From Bradyrhizobium liaoningense (lineage in GTDB: Bacteria; Pseudomonadota; Alphaproteobacteria; Rhizobiales; Xanthobacteraceae), in NCBI RefSeq assembly GCF_018130785.1, contig NZ_JAFCJT010000023.1:40147-104146 (forward strand): DNA of 64,000 bases. Reading direction: 5' to 3'. Below are positions 29,310 to 47,737 of this stretch, piece by piece. Below the pieces are notes generated by a model that saw only the letters and a program-made list of their open reading frames with translations, made no database searches and was not told the origin of the DNA. Positions within the stretch are counted from its first letter, which is position 1, and each line of letters opens with the position of its first letter. The position numbers and the translations under genes were made by a program.

Positions 29310-29984
29310 CTACTCGTTGCGCGCGATCGCCGTCAGCTTGGTCATGTTCCTCAGCAGGATGCGGCCGCGCTGGAGATCCAGGATCGCTTCCTTGCGCCAG
29401 GCCTGCAGCTGGCGGTTGACGCTCTCGCGGGCGGCGCCGACGAAGACGCCGAGCTGCTCCTGCGAGATGTGGACTTCCGAGCCGAAATCGGCGGCCAGCG
29501 CGCAGAGCCGCCGTGCCAGCCGCACCGGCAGCGGCTGCAGCATGGATTCTTCCATCCGCTCGCTCTGCCAGCGGATGCGCTGGCACAGCAGCGCGATGAT
29601 CTTGATCGCGACCTTCGGCTCGCGTTCGAGGAAATTGAGAAAATCCTCGCGCCGCAGCACGAACAATTCGCTTGTCTCGCCTGCGGTCGCATCCGCGGTG
29701 CGGCTCTGGCCGTCCAGCACCGCGACCTCGCCGAACAGATCGCCCGGCCCCATGAAGTTCAGGGTCAGACGGCTGCCGTCGGAGGCGCCGGTCTCGATGC
29801 GGACCTGGCCCCGGCGCACGCCGAACAGCGCGTCCCCCGCATCGCCCTTCTGGAACAGCACCTCGCCATTGCCCAGATGCTGGGTGTGGCAGAGATTCGA
29901 CAGCCGCTGGAGCTCGTCTGCGCCGAGATCGGCGAACATCGCGTTCATCTTCAGGATGACCGCAAATTCGGCCTGCTTGCTCAT
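29310..29984 (-). CDS. CRP/FNR family transcriptional regulator (CRP-type)
   Basis: A 224-residue regulator with a cyclic-nucleotide-binding-fold domain (about 10-125; GEVLFQKGDAGDALFGV, PGDLFGEVAVLDGQSRTADA) and a C-terminal helix-turn-helix. The recognition helix ARESVNRQLQ keeps the Arg-Glu...Arg pattern CRP uses to read TGTGA. There is no N-terminal cysteine cluster, so it is not an oxygen-sensing FNR. AAGGA lies eight bases before ATG 29984; a further ATG at 30047 would add 21 residues. A TGTGT-N6-TCACA site lies 92 bp upstream, pointing to autoregulation and possible control of the divergent AsmA gene. Confidence 0.92.
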   Translation of the reverse strand: MSKQAEFAVILKMNAMFADLGADELQRLSNLCHTQHLGNGEVLFQKGDAGDALFGVRRGQVRIETGASDGSRLTLNFMGPGDLFGEVAVLDGQSRTADATAGETSELFVLRREDFLNFLEREPKVAIKIIALLCQRIRWQSERMEESMLQPLPVRLARRLCALAADFGSEVHISQEQLGVFVGAARESVNRQLQAWRKEAILDLQRGRILLRNMTKLTAIARNE

Positions 29985-30076
29985 TTCAATGTCCTTGTGA
30001 ATGTCCTTAACCAGCTTCCTTGGCAAATCGCTTGGAACCATCAACATCAGGATCGCGTAAAACCGCGCCGGAGAAG

Positions 30077-39589: not shown

Positions 39590-42253
39590 ATGGGCACATC
39601 AATCCGATGGACCACGCGCATGCGCGTGTTGCTCCGCCGTTGGCAGGGAGCGCCGCTGACGTGGCTGATCGCCGGCGGCTTCGTGCTGATGGTCGCGATG
39701 GCCATCGGCACCGCGCTGACTGTCGATCGTTTCCGGCAAAATGCGATCGAAAGCGGCCGCGACAGCCTGGAAAACTCCGTGCGCATGCTCGCCCGGCATT
39801 TCGACCGCGAGTTCGAGGACTTTGCGGTGCTCCAGAAGAGCATCATCGCCGAGCTCGAAAGCCACGGCATCGCATCCGCCGATGTCTTCAGCAGCGAGAT
39901 GGGCACGCTGGCCATGCACGAGGTGCTGCGTGCCAAAGCCAGCGGCTGGTCCGACGTCGCCGGCGCCAACGTGTTCGATTCCAACGGCGTGCTGATCAAC
40001 TCGTCGCGGCGCTGGCCGGTCGCCCATATTTCGGTCGCCGACCGCGGCTACTTCAATCGCCTGAAGAACGATCCGGCCTCGCCGGAAGAGATCGAAGTCG
40101 TGCCCGGCCGGTTCGGCAAAGGACCCGCGATCGTGTTCGCGCGGCGCGTCTCAGGTCCGCGCGGCGAATTCCTCGGCATGGTGTCGCGGGCCATCTCGCC
40201 GGAGCAGCTCGAATCCTTCTTCGCCTCGGCCGGGCTCGGCGAGGAATCCTCGATCGCGATGCACCACCAGAATGGCCAGCTGCTCGCGCGCGTTCCGCAT
40301 GTCGCCGCGATGATCGGGCAGAATTTTCGCAACGGCTCGCGCGAGCAGATGGCGGTGTTCGAGCGCACCTTCGTCACGACGCAGCTCGCCAGCCCGATGG
40401 ACGGCAAGGACCGCATCGTCGCCTCGCGCATGCTGACCGGCGAACCGCTGGTCGTGGTCGCAACCAAATCGCTGGATGCGACGCTCGCGACCTGGCGCAC
40501 GCAAACGAAATTCTTCGTCGCCGTCGCCGTGCTGTCGATCGGCCTGCTCGTGCTCACGCTGTTCCTGATCTTCCGCCAGATGACGCGCAGGCTCGCCGTG
40601 GAGAAGCAGCGGCTCGACACCGCGATGAACACGATGACGCAAGGCCTGTTGATGTTCGACCGGGACGAGCGGCTGATCGTCTGCAACCGGCGCTATATCG
40701 AGATGTACGGACTGTCGGCCGACGTGGTGAAGCCCGGCGCCTATTTCCGCGACGTGATCCAGCATCGCCATGACACCGGATCCTTCCACGGTGACGTCGC
40801 CTCCTACTGCGACGACATTCTGAGCAATGCCGGGCGAACCCAGAGCGCCGTCGTCGAGACCGCGGACGGCCGCCTGATCGAGATCAAGAACCAGCCCGGC
40901 GCCGCCGGCGGCTGGCTCGCGACCCACGACGACGTCACCGAGCGTATCCGCGCCGACGAGCGCATCGCGCATATGGCGCATTACGACGCGCTGACCGACC
41001 TGCCCAACCGCGTGCTGATGCGCGGCCATCTGGAGCGCCGCGTGGCGGAGCTTGCCCAAGGCAAGCCGTTCGCGATCCTCTACATCGACGTCGACGAGTT
41101 CAAGGGCGTCAACGATTCGCTCGGCCACGAGGTCGGCGACGAGCTGCTCCGCCAGGTCGCCAACCGCCTGCGCGCCTGCGTCAGCGGCAACGACCTCGTC
41201 GCGCGGCTGGGCGGCGACGAATTCGCCATCGTCAAGGCCGGCACCAGCGATCAGGCCGAGCTGACGACGCTTGCGGAAAATATCCTGAAGGCGTTGCGCA
41301 TGCCCGTGAACTGCAACGGCCAGGAAATCCCGACCGATGCCAGCATCGGCATCGCGATCGCGCCCGATCACGGCGACAATCTCGACGACCTGCTGAAGCG
41401 CGCAGATCTCGCGATGTATGCGGCGAAGTCCGAAGGCCGCCGCACCTTCCGCCTGTTCGTGCCCGAATACGACGCCAAGGCGCGGCAGCGCCGGCAGCTC
41501 GAGCTCGATTTGCGCCAGGCGCTCGCCCGCGGCGAATTCGAGGTGCATTACCAGCCGCTGGTCGATCTCGCGGCCGATGTCGTCAATGGTTGCGAGGCGC
41601 TGCTGCGTTGGCGCCATCCCGAGCGCGGCATGATCTCGCCCGCCGACTTCATTCCGGTCGCGGAAGAGACCGGCCTGATCGGCGAGATCGGCGAATGGGT
41701 CTTGCGGCAGGCCTGCACCGAGGCGGCCAGCTGGCCTGGCGATATCCATGTCGCCGTCAATGTCTCGCCGGTGCAGTTCCGCGCCAGGACGCTGGCGCTG
41801 AAGGTCGCAGCCGCGCTCGCCGAATCAGGCCTCGCCCCCGGCCGCCTCGAGCTCGAGGTCACCGAGACCGTCCTCATTCGCGACGACGAGGAGGCGCTGA
41901 CGATTCTCCAGCAGCTCCGCGAACTCGGCGTGCGCATCGCGCTCGACGATTTCGGCACCGGCTATTCGTCGCTGAGCTATCTGCACCGCTTCCCGTTCGA
42001 CAAGATCAAGATCGACCGCAGCTTCATCAGCGATATCGGCCAGTCCGAGGATTCGTCCCCGATCGTGCAGGCCGTGGTGCACATGGCCGCCGCCCGCCAC
42101 ATGGCGACGACGGCCGAAGGCGTCGAGACCGAAGCCCAGCGCGAGGTGCTGCGGCAGCTCGGGTGCAGCCAGATGCAGGGCTGGCTGTTCAGCCCGGCCG
42201 TGCCGGCGGCGAAGCTGAAGCTGCTGTTGTCGGCGCAGGCTGAGGCGGCTTAG
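39590..42253 (+). CDS. Cache-PAS-GGDEF-EAL cyclic-di-GMP enzyme
   Basis: An 887-residue membrane regulator. TM1 lies at about 24-45, a periplasmic Cache sensor at 46-300, TM2 at about 305-327, and a PAS domain at about 340-455 (AMNTMTQGLLMFDRDERLIVCNRRY). The GGDEF domain follows at about 460-620 with an intact LGGDEFAIV, then EAL at about 635-880 with an intact CEALLRW, VNVSPVQF and the DDFGTGYSSLSYL loop. Both active sites look complete, so it may make or break c-di-GMP depending on its ligand. GGGAGGA precedes the ATG. Confidence 0.95.
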   Translation: MGTSIRWTTRMRVLLRRWQGAPLTWLIAGGFVLMVAMAIGTALTVDRFRQNAIESGRDSLENSVRMLARHFDREFEDFAVLQKSIIAELESHGIASADVFSSEMGTLAMHEVLRAKASGWSDVAGANVFDSNGVLINSSRRWPVAHISVADRGYFNRLKNDPASPEEIEVVPGRFGKGPAIVFARRVSGPRGEFLGMVSRAISPEQLESFFASAGLGEESSIAMHHQNGQLLARVPHVAAMIGQNFRNGSREQMAVFERTFVTTQLASPMDGKDRIVASRMLTGEPLVVVATKSLDATLATWRTQTKFFVAVAVLSIGLLVLTLFLIFRQMTRRLAVEKQRLDTAMNTMTQGLLMFDRDERLIVCNRRYIEMYGLSADVVKPGAYFRDVIQHRHDTGSFHGDVASYCDDILSNAGRTQSAVVETADGRLIEIKNQPGAAGGWLATHDDVTERIRADERIAHMAHYDALTDLPNRVLMRGHLERRVAELAQGKPFAILYIDVDEFKGVNDSLGHEVGDELLRQVANRLRACVSGNDLVARLGGDEFAIVKAGTSDQAELTTLAENILKALRMPVNCNGQEIPTDASIGIAIAPDHGDNLDDLLKRADLAMYAAKSEGRRTFRLFVPEYDAKARQRRQLELDLRQALARGEFEVHYQPLVDLAADVVNGCEALLRWRHPERGMISPADFIPVAEETGLIGEIGEWVLRQACTEAASWPGDIHVAVNVSPVQFRARTLALKVAAALAESGLAPGRLELEVTETVLIRDDEEALTILQQLRELGVRIALDDFGTGYSSLSYLHRFPFDKIKIDRSFISDIGQSEDSSPIVQAVVHMAAARHMATTAEGVETEAQREVLRQLGCSQMQGWLFSPAVPAAKLKLLLSAQAEAA

Positions 42254-42467
42254 CAAGGCGATATTGTTCGAGTACGACACGATTTCGCAACAAATCCCGT
42301 CGTGCTCGAAGCGATCCGCCAACCCGCTTCAGCCCCGACGTAGCGCCGAGAAAACACACCAGAGAGCGCGACGCATCAACATCTCTCGGCTGACTCCTTG
42401 CGCACGGTTGTGTGCACAACTCCGTTAGACACGACTTGAGCTTTAGTCACGATGCAGACCAAGGCGC

Positions 42468-42481
42468 TTGATCCTTGTCAA
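42468..42481 (+). promoter_or_regulatory. FixK2/FNR-type box 1
   Basis: TTGATCCTTGTCAA fits the rhizobial FixK2 pattern TTG(A/C)-N6-(T/G)CAA exactly. It ends 62 bases before the start codon at 42544, the right distance for an activator site centred near -41 with a leader of about 30 bases. Confidence 0.75.
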
Positions 42482-42543
42482 GGTCGGCATCAACCGACGG
42501 GCCTACTTATGCAAAGGGGGCGAGACAGGATAGGAGCAAAACG

Positions 42544-42942
42544 ATGAAGCAGATGGCTTTCAGAAATTTTGCAATTGCAACTTCGATCATCGCCTTTGCA
42601 GCAATGTTCAGCGTTGGCTGGTCTGAGCAAAGCGGGATCTCGCTGTCAGTTGAGAGTGCCCAAGCGAGGCGACTCTATGTCAGCCCGTATCCTTATAATC
42701 ACTACATTCCCGATCAAACCGGTCTGCCCTGGTACGCAGTGCGAGCCTACTACGCTGGCGGCCCCTGGTGTGGGGCCGGCGGCGGGACCGGGTACGGGTA
42801 CGGCACGACGGCTGGAGTCTTTGGGCGTGCTTCCTATACCTGCTACGACGGTTGGGATAGCTATGCGAAGCTCAACGGCATTGGCTGCACGCCCGGCACA
42901 TTGATCAAGGGCGGTGACGGAATCATGTACGTCTGCCAGTAA
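42544..42942 (+). CDS. Secreted WSEQSG-family protein, member 1
   Basis: A 132-residue exported protein of unknown function. A signal peptide (about 1-40) includes FSVGWSEQSGISLSVESAQAR, a motif shared with the proteins at 43194 and 45239. The mature part is Tyr/Gly-rich (YVSPYPYNHYIPDQTGLPWY, GGGTGYGYGTT) and ends with a cysteine module, GCTPGTLIKGGDGIMYVCQ. AGGAG precedes the ATG. A FixK2-type box 62 bases upstream suggests low-oxygen induction. A decayed copy of its last third lies at 43821-43932. A terminator follows at 42961. Confidence 0.8.
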   Translation: MKQMAFRNFAIATSIIAFAAMFSVGWSEQSGISLSVESAQARRLYVSPYPYNHYIPDQTGLPWYAVRAYYAGGPWCGAGGGTGYGYGTTAGVFGRASYTCYDGWDSYAKLNGIGCTPGTLIKGGDGIMYVCQ

Positions 42943-42960
42943 ACACGCGGAGCACAAGGA

Positions 42961-42987
42961 GAGGCGGCGCAATCGCCGCCTCTTTTT
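42961..42987 (+). terminator. Terminator after secreted-family member 1
   Basis: A nine-pair stem GAGGCGGCG / CGCCGCCTC with loop CAAT, followed by TTTTT. A classic rho-independent terminator, 18 bases after the stop. Confidence 0.92.
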
Positions 42988-43116
42988 CAATTTTGAAAAC
43001 GCTGTCCGTTCTCGCCGTCACGGGATCGTTTGGCTCGATCCGCACCATCGAAGAAAACTCGTTGGTAGCGTCAAAGTCTCTGTCTCATCCGAGCTCGCAA
43101 GCCCCCTCGCCTATCC

Positions 43117-43130
43117 TTGATCTAGCGCAA
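43117..43130 (+). promoter_or_regulatory. FixK2/FNR-type box 2
   Basis: TTGATCTAGCGCAA fits TTG(A/C)-N6-(T/G)CAA exactly and ends 63 bases before the start codon at 43194, almost the same distance as box 1. Confidence 0.72.
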
Positions 43131-43193
43131 TGCCGACCCGGCGGTGAGGCAGCATCCTTTCGTCATGGGGCAAGCCAGTAATGGAGCAAGTTC

Positions 43194-43709
43194 ATGAGAC
43201 AGATGCTTCTAACAAAACTTGCAATTGCGGGCTCAACTGTCGCATGCGCGGCACTGTTCTCGTTTAGCTGGTCTGAGCAAAGCGGCGTCTCCTTGTCGGT
43301 GGAGAGCGCCCAAGCGCGGGTCGGTCGACCACTGACCCCGATGAGCGTTGCAGGTGTCGCTCGCCGGCAAAACCGGCGGGCTGCTTACGGGTATGGAGCT
43401 GGAGTAGTCGGCGCCGGCGTCGCCGGCGCGGCCGCCATAGGCACGGCTGCTGCAGTGGCGGCGACATCCCCCAACTGGGGATGGGGAGGCGGCTCTTACT
43501 CCACAGTTGTCGACAACTATGGAGTTACGGGCGTGAGTCCCGACAGAGGTGGGCCTTCCTACGGTGGCGGCGCTATGGGAGCCAACGCCTACTATGCTGG
43601 ATCCACAGCCACCCCCGGCACTGGATGGTACATAACGCCCGGCGGCATGGCCTGCACCTCGGGGACTTGGGTCACAGGCGCCAACGGCATGCCGTTCCAC
43701 TGCCCGTAA
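43194..43709 (+). CDS. Secreted WSEQSG-family protein, member 2
   Basis: A 171-residue exported protein. The signal region carries SWSEQSGVSLSVESAQAR as in member 1, followed by the module RVGRPLTPMSVAGVARRQNR shared with member 3 at 45239. Then comes an Ala/Gly hydrophobic segment (about 68-90, VVGAGVAGAAAIGTAAAVAA) that could span or coat a membrane, a Gly/Tyr/Ser-rich region, and a C-terminal cysteine module ACTSGTWVTGANGMPFHCP resembling that of member 1. ARVGRP proteins of this sort are frequent and uncharacterised in Bradyrhizobium. FixK2-type box 63 bases upstream. Confidence 0.8.
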   Translation: MRQMLLTKLAIAGSTVACAALFSFSWSEQSGVSLSVESAQARVGRPLTPMSVAGVARRQNRRAAYGYGAGVVGAGVAGAAAIGTAAAVAATSPNWGWGGGSYSTVVDNYGVTGVSPDRGGPSYGGGAMGANAYYAGSTATPGTGWYITPGGMACTSGTWVTGANGMPFHCP

Positions 43710-43820
43710 CACACAGACGAAGCGGGTAAAGCGGACATGGACTTCGGCCCGTCAGGGTACCAGCGACGTTAGGGCACCCTGATCTAACGGGTCACACGAA
43801 CAGGTGATTGTGCCCAAAGC

Positions 43821-43932
43821 AACGGAATTGGTTGCACGCCCGGCACACCGATCAAGGGCGACGACGGAACGATGTACGTCGGCCAGCAAGGAAACACGCA
43901 GCGACGAGGAGGCGGTCCAAGCGGCCGCCTCC
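43821..43932 (+). pseudogene. Decayed duplicate of the 3' end of secreted-family member 1
   Basis: The sequence from 43821 translates as NGIGCTPGTPIKGDDGTMYVGQ and aligns, codon by codon, with the last 22 residues of the gene at 42544. The final Cys is Gly and the stop codon is CAA. The similarity continues past the stop into aacacgc-g-agc and a hairpin (43908-43915 with 43925-43932, GGAGGCGG / CCGCCTCC) equivalent to the terminator at 42961. No start, signal sequence or upstream box accompanies it. Confidence 0.8.
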
Positions 43933-44023
43933 AGATCAAACTCTTTCTGATCCTGCATGCGGATTGATGTTGCTTTCGAAGGGCACCAACCTTGCTTTGC
44001 GTGATTTCAAGAGGAGAGTGACC

Positions 44024-44260
44024 ATGATCAGGCTATTTGCTGTTGCAGGCTTTGCGTTAGCCATCGCGTCATCGACGCAGGCAATGCCACGCGCGCCGAT
44101 TCATGCGGACGACCTCATCACGCAAGTCGCGGCCGGCTGCGGGCCAGGCAGGACAATGGTTGGCGGTGTGTGCGTAGCCAGAACCACAATCCGCCAAACC
44201 CGCCGGGACGTCCGCAGGTGCGTGCGATGGAATGCGGGCATTTGCGCGCTGTACCAGTGA
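44024..44260 (+). CDS. Small exported Cys/Arg protein
   Basis: A 78-residue protein with signal peptide (MIRLFAVAGFALAIASSTQA, cleavage near 20) and a mature chain APIHADDLITQVAAGCGPGRT, then MVGGVCVARTTIRQTRRDVR and a cysteine near each end. The GCGPGRT...GGVCVAR pattern is a recurrent Bradyrhizobium small-secreted-protein signature; four cysteines could form two disulfides. GAGGAGAG lies six bases before the ATG. Only a half site (TTGAT at 43964) is seen upstream, so membership of the FixK2-type group is not supported. Confidence 0.75.
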   Translation: MIRLFAVAGFALAIASSTQAMPRAPIHADDLITQVAAGCGPGRTMVGGVCVARTTIRQTRRDVRRCVRWNAGICALYQ

Positions 44261-44862
44261 ACCATCATCACGCCGGCATCTGATCGGCCTCGCGCAGTTC
44301 AAACGTGAGAAAACGTAGTTCGCCGCGCCTGCTTCGCGTCGGGAAGGGTAACACTCGCGAAGCTCCGCAGGCGTCACCTGTTACCGCAGCTTCCCTTTCG
44401 GACAATGGCGTGAGCAGCAATTTCACGCTCCTAATTAACGGCCGACCTCTCGAGTAAGTTTGCACCCGCGGTCGGTTTGGTGGGCTCCGGAGGAGTGCAG
44501 GTCAATCATGCTTGTCCGGGGATGGAGACAATTGTGCGCCCTGCCGGGCGAACGCCCGCGCATCAGCGTGCGCGCGTGGATCATGGCGGGCCACAAACCT
44601 TATTCGTCAAACGAGCGCTCTCTTGATGCGCTCGCGTCCCCAATCGTCACGGGCTGGATGAAGAGCAGCTTGCATCCGCCTCCGGATGATCTGCGCGGCG
44701 TCAAGGTTGCCTCGCTCCCCAAAACAGCGAGCAGGCTCGATGGAGAGACGATGCTGTAAGTCCGTCATGCCTGGAATCTGCAGGCTTGGAGCCTGCCCCT
44801 GAGGCCCGCGGAGGGCTGGGACGGCGATGGAACTATCGTTACTCCACATAACTTGAAAGGAG
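44261..44862. other. 602-base region without a supported gene
   Basis: A plus-strand frame from ATG 44508 to 44759 (83 codons) has some protein-like stretches (RISVRAWIMAGHKPYSSNERS) but no ribosome site and no family. An antisense frame covers the same DNA. No repeat element or terminator stands out. The area may hold remnants of older genes. Confidence 0.35.
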
Positions 44863-45123
44863 ATGACGGCAATCTGGTACGTGACCTTTGAGGTGCGTAG
44901 ACATGGCCTGCTCCTGAAGCCGCGAAGTCCCTACGAAACGAGGACGTTTGCGACGGAGGCGGACGCCAAGGCGTTCACTCGCTCAAAGCTTGAGGACGGC
45001 GTGGTGCTATTGGCCGGGACGATCAATCCGCATTTTCCCAAGCAACTCATTCCGGCGTCCCGAATCCAGTCCTGGCTGGCTGAGAAGGAAGGAGACCCCA
45101 CTAGTGCCGCCCGTCCCGGATAG
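44863..45123 (+). CDS. Conserved small protein, WYVTFEVRRHG family
   Basis: An 86-residue cytoplasmic protein: IWYVTFEVRRHGLLLKPRSP, ETRTFATEADAKAFTRSKL, GTINPHFPKQLIPASRIQSW. The pattern is one I associate with small conserved hypothetical proteins of Bradyrhizobium. The strand-helix order suggests a compact alpha/beta fold. The ribosome site AAAGGAG almost touches the ATG at 44863, which is unusually close; no better start is seen. Confidence 0.72.
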   Translation: MTAIWYVTFEVRRHGLLLKPRSPYETRTFATEADAKAFTRSKLEDGVVLLAGTINPHFPKQLIPASRIQSWLAEKEGDPTSAARPG

Positions 45124-45163
45124 GCGCGCAAATGGCGACCTCGTCCAAGATAGCTTCTCGCCG

Positions 45164-45177
45164 TTGATGTGGATCAA
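45164..45177 (+). promoter_or_regulatory. FixK2/FNR-type box 3
   Basis: TTGATGTGGATCAA matches both the FixK2 pattern and the stricter FNR consensus TTGAT-N4-ATCAA at every defined base. It ends 61 bases before the ATG at 45239. Confidence 0.8.
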
Positions 45178-45238
45178 GCGACGCGTTCGCCATGGGGGAA
45201 GTATCGGCCGGCAAGGTAGACTGGCCACGAGGAGGCTC

Positions 45239-45511
45239 ATGATGAAGCGGATTGGCGCAATGCGGCTCGCATTCGTAGCATTCGGGCTGGCATGTGGATT
45301 TGGTACGATCAATTGGTCGGAGAGCGACGGCCTGTCGCTTATCCAAGGCGCAGAAGCCAGGGTCGGACGACCGGCAACGCCGGTGAGCGTCGCAGGTGTT
45401 GCGCGCAGACAGACGCGACGGGCAGTCGTCGGGGGAGCTGCGGTCGGAGCGGCGGCCGCCGGTACGGCCTGTGTGCGCGTGCTGGTGAATGGTGCCTACG
45501 TGTGTCGCTGA
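45239..45511 (+). CDS. Secreted WSEQSG-family protein, member 3
   Basis: A 90-residue exported protein. The signal region has NWSESDGLSLIQGAEARVGRP, the diverged form of the WSEQSG motif, then TPVSVAGVARRQTRR as in member 2, an Ala/Gly hydrophobic run (VVGGAAVGAAAAGTA) and a short end ACVRVLVNGAYVCR with two cysteines. It is the minimal form of the family. Two ATG codons lie in tandem (45239, 45242); GAGGAGG favours the second. FixK2/FNR box 61 bases upstream. Confidence 0.8.
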   Translation: MMKRIGAMRLAFVAFGLACGFGTINWSESDGLSLIQGAEARVGRPATPVSVAGVARRQTRRAVVGGAAVGAAAAGTACVRVLVNGAYVCR

Positions 45512-45919
45512 GACACTTCCGGACCTCGAGTTCGATGTCGTGGTCCGGAGCAGCTTCACGCAGGCCTCGCAGCTCGTTCTGATCGCAGAGCCAACCGGCG
45601 CTCCACGGGCGCTTATTTGTCTGGATAGGCAATGACGCTGACGCGCATGCGCAGCGAACACGAAAGCTGCTGTTGTCAGATGCTGCGCGGTATTGGAATG
45701 ACGACATCGACTTGATGGCGCGCTCGCGGTGGATCAGCGTCAGGGTGATCGCACCTTGATCCATATGCAACGGCGTCAAAACGGAATCAGCGGCGGTCGT
45801 TGGTCGCGCATGCTGCCTGGGGATGTCGGCCTTGGCAAAGCGGACACCGCCCAGGCTTAAAGTCAGCCAGCCGCGCAGGTCCAGACCGTCACGCGGCGGG
45901 TATGAATCAACATCCTGTC
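45512..45919. other. 408-base convergent region, possible gene remnant
   Basis: A 47-codon frame (GTG 45492 to 45635, overlapping the end of member 3) reads LEFDVVVRSSFTQASQLVLI and is protein-like, but has no ribosome site; it may be a truncated gene. A near-box TTGATCCATATGCAA at 45756-45770 has one base too many to be a FixK2 site. Nothing else is supported. Confidence 0.35.
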
Positions 45920-46435
45920 TCAGTCCTCGTCCTCGGCCTGCGCACGACGTCTTTCCACGACATCACTCATATCGTGAAGGACAAGCACCGCGAGGGCCCC
46001 CATGCGCTGCCTCTGTTCGGGACTGAGGGTCTTGTAGAGTGGCTGCCATGCCTCGGCGAGTTTATCCAGATCGGCTGATCGTTGAGCCAATGCCTCCGAG
46101 CGTCGCTGCAGGAAGGCAATGGGGTCACGATTGCGCAAGGTTTCGACGGCATTTTGGTCGGCCCGTCGACCCACTGTTTCCGAGATTTTTGCAACACGGG
46201 CCCTCCGATCCTCCGCCCTGGCACGAATGGCGCTCTCGACGGGCGGCCAGAGCTTTTCCTGTTCAGGTGTCAGCTGCAAGGCGGCCTTGGTCAGATCGAT
46301 CCGCATGTCGACCAGTGTATTCCGGTCCACCGCGTTTAGCCGATCTGGCGTCGCGGGGGATGGCTGTTGCGCGTTGGCAACCGACGGTGCGGTGATAAGG
46401 AGTGCAGCTGTTGCGATCACTACTATTTTCATCAT
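45920..46435 (-). CDS. Small LTXXQ-motif (Spy/CpxP-like) periplasmic protein
   Basis: A 171-residue exported protein: signal peptide (1-23, MKIVVIATAALLITAPSVANA) and an all-helical mature chain with two LTXXQ-like motifs, LQLTPEQEKLWPPVESAI and KTLSPEQRQRMGALAVLVL. Spy-like proteins bind unfolded periplasmic proteins or act in metal and envelope-stress responses. AGGAGG lies seven bases before ATGATG at 46435. A perfect FNR/FixK2 palindrome 66 bases upstream suggests induction when oxygen is low, which is not the usual Cpx-type control. Confidence 0.9.
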   Translation of the reverse strand: MMKIVVIATAALLITAPSVANAQQPSPATPDRLNAVDRNTLVDMRIDLTKAALQLTPEQEKLWPPVESAIRARAEDRRARVAKISETVGRRADQNAVETLRNRDPIAFLQRRSEALAQRSADLDKLAEAWQPLYKTLSPEQRQRMGALAVLVLHDMSDVVERRRAQAEDED

Positions 46436-46844
46436 CGGCAACCTCCTAGGTGAGCGGCCCCCAGGCACCACGCAAAAAATGATCGGCAGTGCGATCTCGC
46501 TTTGATTCAAATCAAGGGACTTGGAGAAAGAAAAGGACCTGGAGAAAGAATTGTGGCGCGGGCTGAGCGAGACCTGCGACATGTCCGTTCCCTGCGAAGC
46601 CTTCGGCGGGAGCACGCGTGATCCCTCAGTCACCGGTCGAAGCCGTTGAGACGTGCGGTGACAGCAACGACCCAACGCCGGCACCGAACCAATAGCGAGG
46701 GTTAAGATGCTGCGCGAATGACGGCTGCGCTGTGACATCGTGGTTTGTCGGCGGCGACGATAGTGCTGGCTATTGCCGTGGCAAGCGCGCATGGTCGTGA
46801 AAGCCGGCACCGGTTGGGGCTTCACTTGCGAAAGGCAAGCGTGC
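46436..46844. other. 409-base divergent region
   Basis: Promoter region of the LTXXQ gene on the minus strand, with the FNR/FixK2-type box at 46502, then a short direct repeat (ggagaaagaa near 46525 and 46544). No further gene is supported; minus-strand frames here are low-quality extensions of the LTXXQ frame. Confidence 0.4.
46502..46515 (-). promoter_or_regulatory. FixK2/FNR-type box 4
   Basis: TTGATTCAAATCAA is a perfect match to FNR TTGAT-N4-ATCAA and to the FixK2 pattern. It lies 66 bases before the LTXXQ start codon at 46435. Confidence 0.82.
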
Positions 46845-47066
46845 ATGACCATCCGCTCGCGGCGAGAAACCGTCACCTTCAGGCATCCGTTCCGCATCCG
46901 CGGCATCGAGCGCATCTTTCCGGTGGGCGCCTTTGACGTCGTCACTGACGAGGAGTCGATCGAGGGCCGGACCTTTTCGGCCTATCGCCGCGTTGCCACG
47001 ATGATCACCGTGCCCGCCGAAGGCCCTCGCGGCGAATATCAGGGAGCTGCGCTGTCGGCGGGATGA
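46845..47066 (+). CDS. Conserved small hypothetical protein
   Basis: A 73-residue protein starting MTIRSRRETVTFRHPFRIRG, then ERIFPVGAFDVVTDEESIEG and FSAYRRVATMITVPAE. It is beta-rich, with no signal peptide. I associate this start and the DEE-IEG-SYRRVATMI pattern with a small Bradyrhizobium family of unknown function, usually a little longer; the C-terminus here (GPRGEYQGAALSAG) may be shortened. AAAGG lies nine bases before the ATG. Confidence 0.7.
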   Translation: MTIRSRRETVTFRHPFRIRGIERIFPVGAFDVVTDEESIEGRTFSAYRRVATMITVPAEGPRGEYQGAALSAG

Positions 47067-47187
47067 CTGAGGCAAGCGACGACCGCCTGCGTTCTCGGCG
47101 CGCGCCATGCTCCGGACTACCGGGAATTTGGCGGCGACGATTTGAGGGGTGATCGTGCCAGGAAGCAATCAAGTAAAGGAGTGAGCC

Positions 47188-47466
47188 ATGACATTGACCA
47201 GCGGCCGCTTCATCGGCCACGAATACGACCGGATGATCGTCCGGTTCTCCATGCATGACGGTGCCAAGGAGATTCCTTGCGCAATCTCGACCTCGGCGAT
47301 GGACTACCTCGAGCCTAGCCCGCAAGTCAGGCCCGAGCAACGTGAAGCCCAGTTCATTCGCCTGCGGGATCGCATCGAAGCACGGGCGGCGAGCAAATAT
47401 CGCGCGACGGAGTTCGAAGGCACGCCGCCCGGCATCGTGCTACGGGGCATCGACTTCAGGCTGTAG
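47188..47466 (+). CDS. DUF1488 family protein
   Basis: A 92-residue protein with DUF1488 features: [47 protein letters not shown] and the conserved end [23 protein letters not shown] lies six bases before the ATG. Function unknown. Its last 11 bases (47456-47466) overlap the 3' end of rpsU on the opposite strand, so the two mRNAs are antisense at their ends. Confidence 0.85.
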
Positions 47467-47737
47467 GGACCCGGGCTTTGACCTCCGGCAAGGGCGACTT
47501 GCGCTCAAAAGGCTTCTTTTTCGGTGGAGCGGGCAGCAATCCTTCCCGGATTGCCTGCTTTCGAGCGAGCTTGCGGGCTCGTCGAACTGCTTCGGACTTC
47601 TCGCGAGCCTTTCTCTCCGAGGGCTTTTCGTAGGAACGCCGCTGCTTCATTTCCCGGAAGACGCCCTCGCGTTGCATCTTCTTCTTGAGAACACGGAGTG
47701 CCTGCTCAACATTGTTGTCTCTGACGAGTACCTGCAA
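47456..47737 (-). CDS. rpsU: 30S ribosomal protein S21
   Basis: A 93-residue S21: [40 protein letters not shown] and [20 protein letters not shown] match the family, followed by a rhizobial-type basic/Pro tail ([20 protein letters not shown]). The start is TTG at 47737 with GAGGAG six bases upstream; the longer reading frame upstream is not S21. S21 helps initiation and is often present in several copies in Bradyrhizobium, so this may be an accessory copy. The neighbourhood of stress-type small genes favours condition-specific use, which is inference. Confidence 0.92.

Follow-up and report, generated by a model that had tools for sequence, protein, structure and literature searches.

Four short boxes of CRP/FNR type stand before four genes for small exported-looking proteins within a 64,000-nt window of the Bradyrhizobium liaoningense genome (G000:C16:40147-104146; the whole genome is 8.3 Mb and 99.98% complete). 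Boxes were searched with the consensus TTG(A/C)-N6-(T/G)CAA (the core), which PMC5582078 gives for FixK2, and with the palindromic form TTGAT-N4-ATCAA. An original prediction, made from the letters of the window alone, had placed four perfect boxes at a fixed distance before the start codons. The positions and the distances from box end to ATG are correct (Table 1), and all boxes fit the core (4/4). The word perfect holds for this degenerate consensus but not for the palindrome, which boxes 3 and 4 match in full, whereas box 1 departs from it at one position and box 2 at two.

As had also been predicted, the products behind the boxes look, judging by their sequences, like small exported proteins, three of them related to one another (P0001 to P0003, encoded by genes 1 to 3) and one an LTXXQ protein (P0004, encoded by gene 4). 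The three relatives have in common an N-terminal hydrophobic segment, a WSE..G.SL segment, and a C-terminal Cys pair; a Gly/Ala-rich stretch and the motif GRPxTPxSxAGVxRRxxRR are common to P0002 and P0003. None of P0001 to P0003 reached the cut-off of any Pfam or NCBIfam model, and a Protein Data Bank (PDB) profile search with their family gave no match at E 1. P0004 matches Pfam PF07813, the LTXXQ/Spy-CpxP family, with an E value of 3.1e-9 and 37.9 bits against a gathering cut-off of 24.3. Its structure model is all-helical (predicted local distance difference test [pLDDT] score, 69.5) and is compatible with, but no proof of, a Spy-like helical fold. Comparison of the model with Spy gave Z values of 5.0-5.4 and with CpxP a Z of 4.8, which are tied with unrelated helical rows and lie in the common range of helical bundles; the fold search gave no match at E below 0.001, and both Spy and CpxP were absent from the matches of a PDB profile search at E 1. 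These two proteins are controlled by envelope-stress systems; unlike them, gene 4 stands under a FixK2-type box. Another LTXXQ protein, bll6433, is described in PMC8125078 as highly expressed in nodules of Aeschynomene afraspera.

Table 1. Boxes, genes, and neighbouring features of the cluster, with positions in the window and distances counted from box end to ATG
Feature	Position	Strand	Distance	Description
Box 1	42468..42481		62 nt before gene 1	TTGATCCTTGTCAA
Gene 1 (P0001)	42544..42942	+		132 aa; N-terminal part of the family; GRPxTP motif absent; Cys pair close to the C terminus
Box 2	43117..43130		63 nt before gene 2	Hybrid, TTGATCTAGCGCAA
Gene 2 (P0002)	43194..43709	+		171 aa; GRPxTP family, long-tail form
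Degenerate gene 1 copy	43812..43886	+		Last 25 codons, 76% identical (tblastn)
P0005	44024..44260	+		78 aa; neighbour that looks exported; no credible box; syntenic in several relatives
P0006	44863..45123	+		86 aa; neighbour without a box; syntenic in several relatives
Box 3	45164..45177		61 nt before gene 3	Palindrome, TTGATGTGGATCAA
Gene 3 (P0003)	45239..45511	+		90 aa; GRPxTP family, short form; C-terminal Cys pair
Gene 4 (P0004)	45920..46435	-		171 aa; LTXXQ-family protein; N-terminal signal-like segment
Box 4	46502..46515		66 nt before gene 4	Palindrome, TTGATTTGAATCAA on the strand of gene 4

In the window, 7 core matches were counted, compared with a mean of 3.12 (standard deviation, 1.79) in shuffled sequence, where 5 of 100 shuffles reach 7, so that the count alone is weak evidence. 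The three matches beyond the four boxes are poor candidates: the one at 43997 stops 13 nt short of the P0005 start, that at 46367 falls within the LTXXQ coding region, and that at 47478 begins 12 nt past an open reading frame (ORF; 47188-47466). The region from 42260 to 46700 contains 6 core matches, whereas its shuffled copies have 0.33 on average and none of 1,000 reaches 6. Assuming 60 genes and a placement range of 26 nt, which was picked after the data were seen, 0.076 well-placed boxes are expected and 4 were seen (Poisson P, 1.3e-6). When the 200-nt upstream sequence of each gene was shuffled, a box fell at 55-75 nt in 0.04-0.3% of trials per gene, and a well-placed box precedes 0/26 scored window ORFs outside the cluster. 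The earlier claim that four boxes at one spacing are not expected by chance is borne out by their placement; their bare number barely exceeds that of shuffled sequence.

Conservation of the boxes among relatives

P0001, P0002, P0003, and P0004 recur together in genomes G002, G231, G239, and G098; locus L042 has the P0003-P0004 end, and L116 (Bradyrhizobium huanghuaihaiense CGMCC 1.10948) and L119 have P0001, P0002, and P0004 without P0003. In this syntenic island, at the loci that hold the gene and its upstream sequence, box 1 is kept in 7/7, box 2 in 7/7, box 3 in 6/6, and box 4 in 8/8, all at 58-66 nt (the counts include the window itself, and L041 and L043 are not counted separately from L264 and L265). 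The box ends are constant while the flanks change, and in boxes 1, 3, and 4 the spacers change too. Box 1 keeps its TTGA and TCAA ends around a drifting spacer, and box 2 has the same 14 letters in 7/7 loci.

The scan of LTXXQ genes covered 20 of 30 loci. A box at 64-69 nt precedes every close orthologue of gene 4 (9/9, its own included), as a palindrome in 7 and with one mismatch in 2, and three mid-distance paralogues have a box too, 37-65 nt before the start chosen by script. Among the distant LTXXQ genes, none of the 8 scanned has a box at the distance seen in close orthologues, and one has a palindrome at 101 nt.

Similar boxes precede further members of the family of genes 1 to 3. A fourth paralogue, on contig C7, has the palindromic box TTGATCCAGATCAA 63 nt before its ATG. 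In USDA110, the gene at 867150-867392 is preceded by a palindromic box at 61 nt. We examined 79 loci from named genomes, selected on protein similarity as the best kept of 363 candidates (for P0003, the top locus is 94% identical). In 55 of them, the GRP codon is preceded by a core box at 189-212 nt. A wider range raises this to 57/79, including two poor outliers (L079 and L100). The reversed pattern gave 0 matches in the two box bins and 2 in the adjoining bin. The logo of 46 upstreams with less than 80% identity, two poor outliers included, reads TTGATCTRGATCAA, with box columns rising to 2.18 bits and flanks at or below 0.58. A broader sample, taken from related genomes, was less uniform: of its 23 loci, which include two from beyond the genus, 12 have a core box 55-81 nt before the chosen start. 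The original prediction had named boxes missing at orthologues as the outcome that would speak against it; they are kept in the island, before the close LTXXQ orthologues, and at most of the family loci (55/79).

Candidate regulator and proposed control at low oxygen

The genome contains 17 HTH_Crp_2 matches. Comparison with G061, which we take to be Bradyrhizobium diazoefficiens USDA110, places the FixK2 orthologue at C19:19171-19749. This protein aligns over 232 of 235 residues with the FixK2 of PDB entry 4i2o (E 7.2e-142) and has Cys where the crystal protein has Ser. Its gene lies ~5 kb from ccoN/fixN (C19:12872-14233), which has a palindromic box (C19:14541) 58 nt before the likely start MPQPSISK, presumably that of FixN. 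FixK2 C183 and a C183S variant are named in PMC9104804, and Table 1 of PMC6710368 lists the fixN box at position -70. The geometry of the four genes is thus close to that of a proven FixK2 promoter. Another Crp gene, at C1:450992, was considered as FixK2 and rejected, being 91% identical to a different gene in G061. This FixK-type paralogue (G000:C1:450992-451672, L258; counterpart G061:C1:3834652-3835329, L259) has Ser in place of the redox-sensitive Cys of FixK2 and is perhaps a naturally oxidation-insensitive FixK. A further Crp/Fnr-family regulator, P0007, is encoded in the window at 29310-30047 on the minus strand, and its recognition helix differs from that of FixK.

We consider it highly probable that the four boxes are binding sites of a FixK2-type CRP/FNR activator, each driving its own exported-looking gene at low oxygen. 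The consensus, the box positions and their conservation, the geometry in common with fixN, the presence of FixK2, and the family relations all agree with the predicted FixK2-type promoters before small exported-looking proteins. The best reading is that these genes would be new targets of the known FixLJ-FixK2 regulon, and that an undescribed exported family was recruited to it within Bradyrhizobium. The regulon as known from B. diazoefficiens (fixNOQP, napEDABC, and nosR) has the same box consensus and a similar distance to the start codon; unlike its known targets, those found here are small exported-looking proteins of no known function.

As oxygen falls, FixL-FixJ would switch on fixK2, and the FixK2 dimer would bind each 14-bp box and recruit RNA polymerase. 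In such promoters the box can sit 40.5 bp before the transcription start (for nosR, PMC5582078 gives the start at +40.5), so that the 61-66 nt between box and ATG would correspond to a leader of ~28-32 nt. Each box would then drive its own gene, three of them family relatives and one encoding an LTXXQ periplasmic protein; gene 1 would supply the N-terminal part of the family only, and genes 2 and 3 the GRPxTPxSxAGVxRR module. The products, presumably exported, would work in the envelope of a free-living soil bacterium when oxygen is low. A role in symbiotic life, which had also been put forward, is not supported for this strain and is unlikely here, because neither nifH nor nodC gave a match at E 1e-20 in the 99.98%-complete genome.

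Several observations weigh against control by FixK2 of exported products. No box was found, even in the wide range, at 22 of the 79 family loci, and 11 of 23 non-own loci in the broader sample have none at the matching distance; in G061, only 1 of 4 family members has a box. Core matches also occur within family coding regions (7 in one bin), the logo of 46 upstreams shows no clear -10 element, and no expression data were found for these genes. The hydrophobic segment of genes 1 to 3 ends well before the AxA site, which is long for a signal peptide.

The boxes could instead be real CRP/FNR-type sites whose main regulator is another protein, such as NnrR (nitric oxide, denitrification), FixK1, or the FixK2-like paralogue at C1:450992, which we regard as rather unlikely. 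The 17 HTH_Crp_2 matches favour this alternative, as does the paralogue, 91% identical to the G061 gene and with the same LTLETVSR helix. Gene 2 is the likeliest candidate for such control. Its box belongs to a hybrid class, TTGA-N5-CGCAA, found in 7/79 loci, all of them with a stretch of 115-142 residues between GRP and the stop; shorter box-bearing members have no such box (0/48), and an eighth hybrid, L100, is a poor outlier. The gene 2 box has the TTGAT...GCGCAA half-site pair of nosR, whose box is given as TTGATCCAGCGCAA in PMC5582078. In Table 1 of PMC6710368, nosR (TTGATCCAGCGCAA) and nirK fall in an nnrR mutant, but so, weakly, does fixN. By analogy with nosR, gene 2 may thus answer to two regulators. 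Boxes 1, 3, and 4, however, have the TTGA and TCAA ends of the FixK-type consensus, FixK2 is present, and nosR itself has FixK2 as its main activator according to PMC5582078. Common descent of the long members, that is, plain inheritance in one clade, could explain the hybrid pattern too. Unlike nosR and nirK, box 2 has no denitrification gene identified around it within 42000-47600, the annotated part of the window. It is very improbable, and already disfavoured, that the boxes are functionless chance matches whose seeming conservation reflects close strain kinship. The marginally raised total of core matches in the window would fit such an origin, but a placement P of ~1e-6 does not, nor do box ends that stay fixed while their surroundings change, a box shared by 46 upstreams of less than 80% identity (two poor outliers included), a paralogue on another contig that has the box, or the lack of it before the scored window ORFs outside the cluster (0/26).

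A separate question is where the products of genes 1 to 3 reside. Because their hydrophobic segment ends well before AxA, they may be anchored rather than secreted, as single-pass inner-membrane proteins with the tail toward the periplasm; this seems possible, if somewhat doubtful. Consistent with anchoring are the many residues that separate the hydrophobic helix from AxA and a motif 41-49 residues after the start that is also found in short forms outside Bradyrhizobium. The P0003 structure model has a helix at 3-20, disorder, and a hairpin at 80-89, but with a mean pLDDT of only 53.5 it is uninformative. Set against it, A38 and A40 of AxA are invariant and AxA is missing from long proteins with the motif near the C terminus, as expected of a cleavage site.

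Returning to control by FixK2, we tentatively suggest that these genes may belong to an unrecognised envelope arm of the Bradyrhizobium FixK2 regulon. Such an arm would consist of genus-wide microproteins, either exported or anchored, that have a portable GRPxTPxSxAGVxRR module as their basis. They lack the box in other Hyphomicrobiales, would have been recruited to low-oxygen control in Bradyrhizobium, and would act with an LTXXQ periplasmic chaperone even where cells are incapable of nitrogen fixation and nodulation. The analysis as a whole proposes a conserved target group for an oxygen regulon that ranks among the best studied in soil bacteria, and it finds these targets under FixK2-type boxes in a strain that gave neither a nifH nor a nodC match. 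A further outcome is a widespread protein family that has no curated model, for which the promoters would give a first handle on function, namely when the genes are used and under which regulator.

The palindrome occurs at 38 places in the genome and its reversed pattern at 0. At 11 of the 38, an exported-looking protein starts 54-99 nt downstream (judged by eye, internal start codons counted), which fits an exported-protein arm in a comparison without a statistical test. At L212 (G000:C13:134873), a single palindromic box is flanked by two small exported-looking genes in divergent orientation, whose starts lie 63 and ~100 nt away.

The GRPxTP family and neighbouring genes

The family profile matches 203 of 265 Bradyrhizobium genomes, some through long forms only. 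In a sample of the order that includes Bradyrhizobium, it matches 36 of 297 genomes, which belong to 15 of 122 genera. Long proteins (those measured have 174-226 aa) have the module near the C terminus behind another domain, and the two long and two short relatives that were scanned had no Pfam or NCBIfam match. Longer exported-looking Hyphomicrobiales proteins with the module in this position are found at L253, L255, L256, L257, and L029-L033. Outside Bradyrhizobium, a box lies within 300 nt of the script-chosen start in 0/17 short and 0/3 long forms (L236, L239, and L254, which the motif expression did not match, were left out of this count). Since these scored forms have no box, FixK2-type control appears to have been acquired after the module itself arose. 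Bradyrhizobium-like members were also met at L066 and L064, on contigs labelled Frankia sp. RB7 and Bryobacterales that are probably misassigned. Searches with five motif peptides of the family found no paper, and none was found for bsl0793-bsl0799 or bll0795-bll0799 (USDA110 locus tags estimated from position), although a listing in the regulon paper Mesa 2008 is possible.

The ORFs neighbouring the 79 family loci were tried as a neutral control and failed as such, 23/191 having a box themselves at 50-82 nt. With a longer upstream requirement, 21/156 have a box at this distance, compared with 0/156 for the reversed pattern and 3/156 for a displaced range. Several of these box-bearing neighbours are exported-looking or an LTXXQ gene, so that the neighbours of family genes look co-regulated. 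At other loci of the same genome, fetched mainly for Crp genes, 1/21 ORFs has a box. Clustering of the ORFs in the 79 loci revealed loose associations only, e.g., with LTXXQ, P0005-like, and P0006-like genes. The decayed gene 1 end downstream of gene 2 (Table 1), of which a matching piece is also present in L041, L043, L264, and L265, has the appearance of a trace of an old duplication.

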